NCBI RefSeq assembly: GCF_016065055.1
Contig: NZ_CP065856.1
Coordinates: forward strand, 2,851,836-2,915,835
Source: Halosimplex litoreum
GTDB lineage: Archaea > Halobacteriota > Halobacteria > Halobacteriales > Haloarculaceae
Length of the DNA stretch: 64,000 nt
Direction of reading: 5' to 3'
Shown here: in pieces, positions 13,335-18,720 of the stretch
How the letters are laid out: each line of letters begins with the position of its first letter
How positions within the stretch are numbered: the stretch's first letter is position 1
Program-made: the position numbers and the translations under genes
The notes under the pieces: model-generated
The model's database searches: none
The model's input: the letters and a program-made list of their open reading frames with translations, nothing else
What the model was told of the DNA's origin: nothing

Positions 13335-13744
13335 TGGAGCCGTCTTTCGCTCGAAGCGGCTTAAACCCAAGTATCGGCGCGGTGGCGTGACCCGCCGGTG
13401 AGAGTGTCTGCCTTCGCCAGCGATACTGGCCGTGAGGAAATGAACGGCCGCGACCGGACACGCCGTCGGCTGACCGAGAGGAGACTGTCGGAAGCGGTAG
13501 TTGGGCGGTGGCCGTGCGGAGGCGGTGGCAGGATCGATCGTACCGGACGAGAGCGCGAAGCGACCGAGCTGTCTGGCCCTTTTGACCCCTGTTTTCCCGC
13601 CCGAGTTTCCCGCAGCGAGGCTTCGAGTCGCGAGGACAGCCGGTCGGGGAGGGGATGGTAGCGTGCGCGGTCCGGGAGTGAGCGAACGCGAAGCGTTCGC
13701 GAACATCGGACGGCGCACGACCGACGACCGAAGGGAGGAAGGAG
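13335..13744. other. Non-coding region with one strong hairpin
   Basis: No supported coding sequence lies between the Bat-like gene and the tRNA region. It contains a hairpin at 13682-13700: GCGAACGC, GAA loop, GCGTTCGC, with arms of 8 bases. Open frames here are Arg- and Ser-rich and have no haloarchaeal protein character. Confidence 0.55.
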
Positions 13745-13766
13745 TGCGCCGTCCGGGAATCGAACC
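13745..13766 (-). repeat. Fragment of the tRNA-Gly 3' end (possible attachment-site scar)
   Basis: On the minus strand this reads GGTTCGATTCCCGGACGG then CGCA, the T-loop and 3' acceptor half of tRNA-Gly. The whole fragment differs from the functional gene at 13882-13952 at about 2 of 22 positions. It has no 5' half. The two copies are in direct orientation, about 140 bases apart, as left by integration at a tRNA 3' end. Confidence 0.65.
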
Positions 13767-13881
13767 GGAGGAAGACGTTCCGGGCGTGCGGTCTCACTCC
13801 GTTCGACCGTTCCGGGGCTGCGACTTCCAGGGTTCAATTCTCGGTGGCGATGATGTCTCTCACTGGCGTTCGAGACAATCA

Positions 13882-13952
13882 TGCGCCGTCCGGGAATTGA
13901 ACCCGGGCTATTAGCTTGGGAAGCTAATGTCCTACCACTGGACCAACGGCGC
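13882..13952 (-). tRNA. tRNA-Gly (anticodon CCC)
   Basis: 71 bases. Acceptor stem GCGCCGT pairs with ACGGCGC, followed by discriminator A; no CCA is encoded. The D-loop region TTGGTCCAGTGGTAGGAC is normal. The anticodon stem-loop is TTAGC-TTCCCAA-GCTAA, placing CCC at positions 34-36. The T arm is CCGGG-TTCAATT-CCCGG. It decodes GGG. Confidence 0.96.
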
Positions 13953-17343: not shown

Positions 17344-18720
17344 CGGGGTCGAAATCGAAACGCGTGAACTACCCCTGCCTACTCACTCGCGGCGTAGCCG
17401 GTCGTTCCTCGAGGCAGGGGCTTCCTGTTTCTACGACGCGCTTTGCAGACACAACCGCAGTGTCCGCAGGGAGCGCAGTCTCCACAGGCGTTAATTCGGA
17501 GTGACCCACTCCTAGTTCGGTGAGTCCACGAAAAAGAATGTTCCACGCTGCGTTCGCGTCTCTATCCGCCTCGAAGCCACAGGCAGGACAGGAGTGGTCA
17601 CGTATCCACAGCGGTTTGTCGGTTTCGACGCCACACTGAGCGCACTCTTTGGTGGTGCCTTCCGGCTGCACCTCCATGAAGTACGTCCCCTCGCGTTTGC
17701 ACTTCCATTCGAGCATATCGGTGAAGGTGTTCCATGCTACCGACGCCGTGTTGCGGCCGTTACGTGGCGATCCCAGCATCGCTTTCACGTCGAGGTCTTC
17801 GACGGCGACCAGTTCGTACTCCCGAGCGTAGTAGTTCGATAGTTTGTGCAGAAAGTCACGCCGCTTGCGCTTGATTCGGAGGTGACACGCAGCGACACGC
17901 TGACGTTGGGTCTCCCAATTGTTCGACTCGTGCTCTTTGCGCGAGAGCTTCCGTTGCTCTCGTTCGAGTCTGTCGCGTTCTTCCGAGAGGTCGAGTGATT
18001 CGACTGCCGTCCCGTCAGTGTCGTGGGCATACTTCAGAATGCCCACGTCGATGCCGACCACCTCCTCGGCGTCGATCTCTTCCAGCGATTGCTTGACTGG
18101 GGGTTCTGTGTCCATCTCGATGCCGAAGATAGCGAACCACTCGCCGGTTTTCTCTTTTTTCAGCGTGACTTCCTTGACCGTGGCGTCGTCGGGGAGCGGT
18201 CGGTGGAGTTCGATTGGGATGTCTGCGAGTTTCGACAGCGACAGCACAGTCTGACCACTCTTCTTGTCGAGTTCGAAGCCAGACTGGTTGTAGGTGAAAC
18301 TGCGGAACTCCCGAGGTGACTTCCACCGAAGTTCACCGACGTTGTAGCCGTGCTCCTTGAGCTTCCCGAGAGCTTTGATGTTCTTGGCGACCCGCATGAC
18401 GGTGGGCTGGAGCACTTTCGAGTACACGTCGGTAAGCGCGTCCCACCACTCTTTGAGGTCGGGAAGCTCGTCACGGATCTTCCGGACACGCTGTTTGACG
18501 GTGCTCTCGTCTTCGGGAATCTGAGTGAAGCGGTACAGGGCGTGGTTGTAGAGTTGACGGCAGGTATCACGGTGGTAGTCCAACGTCTCACGTTGGCGTT
18601 CCGTGGGCTCGAGGCGATACCTGTAGTTGTAGTTCATTCCACGCACTTCGAGAGAGACGTGACAGACGTATCAACTCTTGCTGTCCGGAGTGAAAGTAGT
18701 CACCCCGTCGGCCAGTGACC
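17344..18720 (-). mobile_element. IS200/IS605-group element of the tnpB-only (IS1341) type
   Basis: The element holds a complete tnpB and no tnpA transposase. The ends are not resolved: such elements lack terminal inverted repeats, so the borders given are approximate. The segment after the tnpB stop (GGGGTAGTTCAC on the minus strand) is a candidate for the right end. Without TnpA it could move only if a TnpA acts in trans. Confidence 0.5.
17369..18637 (-). CDS. tnpB: TnpB, RNA-guided endonuclease of an IS200/IS605-type element
   Basis: 422 residues from MNYNYRYRLEP at 18637. An upstream in-frame start adds only three residues. The N-terminal helical and OrfB_IS605 regions cover about residues 1-180. 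The RuvC centre is complete: Asp197 in GIDVG, Glu280 in VAVEDLD and Asp360 in DRDANAAWN. A zinc finger lies between RuvC parts, with Cys332, Cys335, Cys350 and Cys353. TnpB proteins are ancestors of Cas12 and cut DNA guided by an RNA made from the 3' end of their own gene. The protein appears intact. Base composition is less GC-rich than its neighbours, a sign of transfer. Confidence 0.95.
   Translation of the reverse strand: MNYNYRYRLEPTERQRETLDYHRDTCRQLYNHALYRFTQIPEDESTVKQRVRKIRDELPDLKEWWDALTDVYSKVLQPTVMRVAKNIKALGKLKEHGYNVGELRWKSPREFRSFTYNQSGFELDKKSGQTVLSLSKLADIPIELHRPLPDDATVKEVTLKKEKTGEWFAIFGIEMDTEPPVKQSLEEIDAEEVVGIDVGILKYAHDTDGTAVESLDLSEERDRLEREQRKLSRKEHESNNWETQRQRVAACHLRIKRKRRDFLHKLSNYYAREYELVAVEDLDVKAMLGSPRNGRNTASVAWNTFTDMLEWKCKREGTYFMEVQPEGTTKECAQCGVETDKPLWIRDHSCPACGFEADRDANAAWNILFRGLTELGVGHSELTPVETALPADTAVVSAKRVVETGSPCLEERPATPRVSRQG

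Follow-up and report, generated by a model that had tools for sequence, protein, structure and literature searches.

Probably mobile, gene-less hairpin units at the 3' ends of haloarchaeal tRNA genes

The closest described systems are mobile elements of archaea, SNJ2-type and others, that use a tyrosine integrase and target tRNA genes (PMC8371274). For a provirus of Haloquadratum, a 22-nt footprint has been reported (PMC3119063). Partial copies of archaeal tRNA genes have been explained by the integration of mobile elements, in Thermococcaceae by insertions of 9–23 kb, and the available portion of that study does not describe short hairpin units (PMC9897764). The units reported here duplicate the tRNA 3' end in direct orientation, as tyrosine-integrase elements do, but they are ∼0.1 kb in size, have a structured end, lack an integrase or any other gene, stand behind many tRNA genes simultaneously and match nothing in viral collections. 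REP/BIME and MITE-type repeats are, like the units, short, gene-less, hairpin-forming and presumably moved in trans. However, one arm of the unit hairpin is the local tRNA 3' end, and the target copy is long where theirs is usually a short duplication. Integron attC cassettes resemble the units in having hairpins conserved more in structure than in sequence, a fixed orientation and tandem arrays at an anchor; the units differ in being too short for a cargo gene, in using a tRNA as anchor and in having ends that copy the anchor. CRISPR arrays and casposons also grow beside an anchor with target duplication, whereas the units are a homologous family rather than random spacers and the genome of the window has no Cas1.

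The window is a stretch of 64,000 nucleotides from Halosimplex litoreum (GCF_016065055.1, contig NZ_CP065856.1, positions 2,851,836 to 2,915,835 of the forward strand). Downstream of its tRNA-Gly(CCC) gene is a stray copy of the 3' end of that gene (table 1). The preliminary description read this fragment as a direct repeat without the 5' half, with about 20 of 22 matching bases and about 115 bases from the tRNA. Orientation and lack of the 5' half are confirmed; 21 of the last 22 nt of the tRNA match, with the single mismatch in the T-loop, and the distance is exactly 115 bp. The spacer of the window unit is 95% identical over 86 positions to a stretch behind tRNA-Ser(gga) of the same genome, and the window stretch matches more weakly behind tRNA-Gly(tcc), tRNA-Arg(cct) and tRNA-Met. 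Because a similarity search of the own genome matched these flanks, the 115-bp stretch is a repeat that occurs behind other tRNAs. As single-stranded DNA the window unit folds into an H2-type structure (see below), modestly better than shuffled sequences (z −1.96).

Table 1. Positions of the tRNA-Gly(CCC) gene, the parts of the unit behind it and the adjoining repeat in the window.
Feature	Position	Strand	Remark
tRNA-Gly(CCC) gene, the anchor; nt 53–73 are the repeated tail	13882–13952	minus	
Copy of the tRNA-Gly 3' end from T-arm to discriminator base, 21/22; forms the right arm of H2	13745–13766	minus	
Unit body: H1 spacer hairpin, inverted T-arm and H2 interior; gene-less	13767–13881	minus	
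H1 spacer hairpin adjoining tRNA-Gly	13846–13881	minus	this copy has a fold z of only −1.47
H2 hairpin: inverted T-arm, GGAAGTC/GTCTTCC stem interrupted by a T.T mismatch, direct T-arm	13750–13845	minus	match to covariance model R1, E 6.6e-16
Second-type repeat: inverted acceptor end, hairpin, shorter altered tail copy (13664–13677)	13664–13744	minus	read by eye

Two other features were observed in the window. Beyond the unit is a second type of tail repeat, composed of an inverted acceptor end, a hairpin and a short direct tail, which is also present at L010 (behind tRNA-Gly(tcc), where several stand in tandem), L012, L015 and L022. On the minus strand, positions 17369–18646 hold an IS605 OrfB (TnpB-like) transposase gene, whose domains are OrfB_IS605 and Cas12f1-like TNB.

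Units of this kind form a family within the genome. Each of its 45 tRNA genes (Rfam tRNA model, Infernal coordinates) was surveyed for copies of its own last 22 nt at ≥17/22 within 1000 nt; 18 have such a copy downstream and none has one upstream. Units are 90–240 bp in length, each ending in a tail copy, a range that comes from 224 units (260 tRNA entries) and a script that took only bodies of 45–260 bp. They hold no gene, and the integrase and cargo genes that a tRNA-integrated element would have between tail copies are found neither in the 115 bp here nor in the 90–240 bp of the 224 units. On the tRNA strand, the common plan is a spacer that often folds (H1), followed by a hairpin (H2) that consists of an inverted T-arm, NNNAGTC, an inner loop, GTCTNNN and a direct T-arm with the tRNA's own acceptor 3' end. 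The inverted T-arm repeats flank H2 rather than the whole unit. Behind several tRNAs, two or more units are arranged in tandem. The genome has 27 matches to the covariance model R1 at E<1e-4, 25 of which follow a same-strand tRNA by no more than 500 nt; the remaining two are also linked to tRNAs, one behind tRNA-Ile across an island and the other behind tRNA-Pro(cgg). Since 20 of these units served to train R1, the informative part is that strong matches are missing elsewhere in the genome. At this threshold there is no match away from tRNA sequence and no autonomous relative in the genome. In contrast to REP/BIME, the units are therefore not scattered intergenically.

Some loci in the genome deviate from the plan. 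A weak R1 match (27.5 bits; L293, G000:C1:1070460-1070537) is located behind the end of a gene and accompanied by a short direct repeat of that end; by eye the DNA reads like a gene for aspartyl-tRNA synthetase. Behind tRNA-Leu(gag) (L080) are tandem repeats of ∼200 bp, partly common to the related genome G161. The tail copy of the unit behind tRNA-Trp (L078) stops within the T-loop, where GGTTCA gives way to unrelated sequence; we considered it as the mark of an island in the distal copy but found no support for this, with no further tail in the 42.5 kb read. ARAGORN calls a tRNA-Ala inside a unit (L102, 1369–1462), and units behind tRNAs may be a source of false tRNA annotations. A whole unit seemed to have moved between tRNA-Pro and tRNA-Ala, but this was an artefact of a false ARAGORN tRNA inside a unit. 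The unit with the false tRNA is counted among the 224, where it adds some different-tRNA pairs, and was removed from the H1/nearest-neighbor, deviant-letter and tail-end analyses.

The family is widespread in haloarchaea. R1 has matches in 190 of 194 genomes of the class at E≤0.001 (the four unit-less ones are G014, G021, G054 and G129) and, in a sample of the phylum, in 22 of 24 members of the order versus none of 124 others. A fixed pattern identified at least 120 stretches in named genomes, and among the titles listed all are haloarchaea or archaeal metagenome bins; contigs of Haloarcula japonica and Natrinema pallidum are among those matched. Across the first 80 of these loci, 72 of 82 pattern matches have a same-strand ARAGORN tRNA 36–261 nt upstream, the other ten likewise follow tRNA sequence on inspection by eye, and tail identity is ≥18/22 in 61 of 82. 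Viral contigs have no match to two unit patterns, one similarity search of phage records returned nothing and one of plasmids returned three weak matches. Unlike a MITE, the unit has no autonomous relative with the same ends in its own genome or in the viral and phage sequences searched, the three weak plasmid matches aside.

Units also turn over between related species. Among eight genomes of the genus, tRNA-Gly(CCC) is followed by the window unit in G000, the genome of the window; by no unit in G161, G194, G197 and G198; by units different from the window unit in G195 and G196; and by two units in G199, of which the one nearer the tRNA is new and the farther one is a worn relative of the G000 unit. 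This pattern bears on three earlier proposals. That tRNA-Gly is a preferred target holds well, as related species carry different units there. An intact long element bounded by tail copies is present in none of the eight genomes in the stretches read at this tRNA. Nor is the same fragment found at the same spacing in all relatives, the pattern named as speaking for an old duplication; units differ across the genus. In 45 tRNA pairs of G000 and G161, a tail copy is present in both at 10, in G000 only at 8, in G161 only at 6 and in neither at 21. This comparison took 48 of 57 tRNA matches of G161; the other nine, in one cluster, were left out. The same genome has twelve tRNA-model matches in 4.4 kb (G161:C1:2778898-2783297, within L317), perhaps a viral or plasmid tRNA array. 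In alignments, exact one-unit indels are found directly behind tRNA-Leu(taa), tRNA-Arg(tct) and tRNA-Gly(gcc). For a lone one-unit indel, gain and loss are indistinguishable, and loss mediated by repeats is known from Haloquadratum (PMC3119063). Different units at one tRNA, however, require gains.

The tail copies are graded by position. Tail identity is 21.1/22 in first units, 20.6 in second and 20.0 in third (224 units, one artefact included). Mismatches amount to 4% at nt 73 versus 44% at nt 74, so that the copy ends at nt 73, and at nt 71–73 they amount to ∼4% in first units and ∼15% in later ones. Since the copy runs from the T-loop to exactly nt 73, the tRNA is kept intact.

We suggest that these are probably gene-less mobile hairpin units of a haloarchaeal family and that an enzyme acting in trans, perhaps a tyrosine recombinase, inserts them at tRNA 3' ends. 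Sequence comparison shows that each unit stands directly behind a tRNA and on its strand and ends in that tRNA's own 3' end; that H2 combines conserved unpaired or mismatched positions with covarying stems; and that whole units vary in presence, number and identity among close relatives, farther copies being more worn. Units would enter beside the tRNA, singly, and older ones would be pushed outward. The enzyme would work on the T-arm/acceptor site and the folded hairpin, and the most likely candidate would be a tyrosine recombinase like those already using the same footprint for proviruses. Unit loss may occur through recombination between tail copies. Tyrosine recombinases (PF00589) are present in 97 of 97 genomes of the class, which is compatible with this reading but nonspecific.

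The origin of the tail is where this explanation meets its main rival. Where a tRNA deviates from its kind, the tail copy shares its letter at 79 of 88 positions; at seven it has that of the majority and at two another. A conservative recombinase needs an incoming unit with the same local tail, and the 79 of 88 does not favor it unless donors are conspecific; with the same exception, this count fits insertion by copying of the target better than conservative exchange. In such copying, the 3' end of the unit (GGTTCRA) would pair with the T-loop in the tRNA gene, from where it would be extended through the local 3' end, by template switch, primer extension or a long staggered cut, so that the local tail is duplicated automatically and no site-specific recombinase is involved. 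Consistent with this, position 57 is the most mismatched T-loop position of the copy, usually by A>G, and from position 59 onward the letters are those of the local tRNA. Interiors common to different tRNAs combined with local tails also speak for copying. The inner part of H2 is in common in 405 pairs of units at different tRNAs versus 55 at the same tRNA (artefact included), and its nearest neighbor is at the same tRNA in 15 of 132 units versus 6.0 expected. The mismatch at position 57, however, is only 5.6%, the exact end at nt 73 needs explaining, and we know of no enzyme for this route. Moreover, vertical descent with homogenization of copies could equally yield the 79 of 88. We regard copying of the target as possible but rather doubtful.

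Other parts of the unit follow the local tRNA in their own ways. Nearest neighbors of H1 belong to the same tRNA kind in 41 of 132 cases versus 5.9 expected (132 of 224 units were parsed for the nearest-neighbor test and 128 for the helix 1 test), which suggests that part of the unit may descend vertically. Units look composite, their inner part being free, their spacer more closely bound to the tRNA and their tail local. At T-loop position 59, the inverted arm pairs with the local tRNA letter in 18 of the ∼23 units with non-A there, and an inverted arm that follows the local tRNA is unexplained by simple insertion.

The hairpin itself is conserved in structure, which raises the possibility that it functions as RNA. 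RNAalifold recovered the long hairpin from 20 aligned units (alignment A1, 20 of 22 units; it omits the second unit of tRNA-Asp and one of tRNA-Arg(cct) that overlaps). In A1, 88.6% of cells of the named structure are paired versus 76.1% in shuffled alignments, and 12 pairs have double changes; none of 500 shuffles reaches either value. A stricter pairing test made no use of a structural alignment and covered 118 distinct units that the fixed pattern picked out in named genomes. Of the 354 cells formed by the three variable pairs adjoining AG/CT, 322 are Watson-Crick, versus 153 ± 8.6 with arms reshuffled. The T.T mismatch between AGTC and GTCT is conserved in the H2 stem, and a hairpin with a conserved mismatch is in common with REP/BIME. 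If H1 and H2 were transcribed as a tRNA trailer, aiding tRNA processing or acting as a small RNA, the covarying stems, the conserved mismatch and the fixed orientation relative to the tRNA would be accounted for. But the expected excess of wobble pairs is missing, with seven G.U versus five A.C in the 354 cells of the 118 units and seven wobble versus five A.C when the first three pairs are counted across 131 units (the search expression biases the G.T counts of positions 54 and 60, which were excluded). Because G.U is no commoner than A.C, the pairing is unlike that expected of RNA selection on the tRNA strand, although counts are low. Units are also behind less than half of the tRNAs and are gained or lost within the genus, and Rfam has no family at the unit loci except tRNA (RF00005, seven loci). 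A functional RNA is thus improbable as an explanation.

The preliminary description interpreted the stray tail as a likely scar of integration, from which a larger, integrase-carrying element may have been lost by deletion. Haloarchaeal proviruses do leave tRNA duplications of 22 nt and 43 nt (PMC3119063), and the same genome has an integrase island at a tRNA. This island spans ∼9.1 kb between tRNA-Ile(gat) (908081) and a tail copy matching 22/22 (917280; L291, G000:C1:908000-921000). An ORF on the minus strand that adjoins the distal tail copy (L291:8207-9217) encodes a tyrosine integrase, its Phage_integrase domain scoring 27.0 against a cut-off of 27.1 and its SAM-like domain scoring above cut-off. 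An ordinary hairpin unit is found beyond the island; hairpin unit and classic island are different things, able to share one site. At tRNA-Gly, there is no sign of a lost element, and the 115 bp are the inserted unit itself, a conserved member of the class-wide gene-less family. Among units with bodies of 45–260 bp, no longer version is seen; the own genome has no R1 match at E<1e-4 far from tRNA sequence, and viral contigs and phages have no match. Of the earlier reading, the part that stands is that the copy stems from insertion at the tRNA 3' end; that it is the scar of a larger lost element is very unlikely.

Insertion of a Cas1 type, casposon or CRISPR-like, beside a tRNA acting as a leader would also duplicate a tRNA 3'-end target and place the newest unit next to the anchor, as in the growth of casposons and CRISPR arrays. 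Cas1 (PF01867) is, however, present in only 38 of 97 genomes of the class; it is missing in 59, including that of the window, and two of the three genomes that lack units in this sample (G014 and G054) do have it. This distribution makes Cas1 a highly improbable general mechanism. Old tandem duplication with drift would give direct tail repeats and the tandem units of some loci, but units at one tRNA differ between relatives with paired stems kept and have interiors in common with units at other tRNAs, which leaves it barely credible.

Among titles and the beginnings of abstracts, in a literature collection that covers few subscription journals, no paper was recognized as describing such units. 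Their turnover between related species and their copies of the local tRNA 3' end suggest a little-noticed kind of mobile DNA. As one tentative extension, they might reflect a class-wide process of adding DNA, in which gene-less cassettes, recognized as folded single-stranded DNA, are appended singly behind tRNAs, with the newest innermost and the tail duplicated each time. Arrays would then grow in the manner of integrons or CRISPR without their enzymes, and the units may even be decoy attachment sites that shield tRNA genes from proviruses and plasmids.

If mobile, the units would belong to the mobile repeats with the strictest targeting in prokaryotes, and they would preserve a natural record of how tRNA genes gain and lose insertions. 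They allow DNA-hairpin recognition to be tested in archaea and may account for stray tRNA fragments. If they are decoy attachment sites, as putatively suggested, they would have a bearing on how tRNA genes survive under constant integration.
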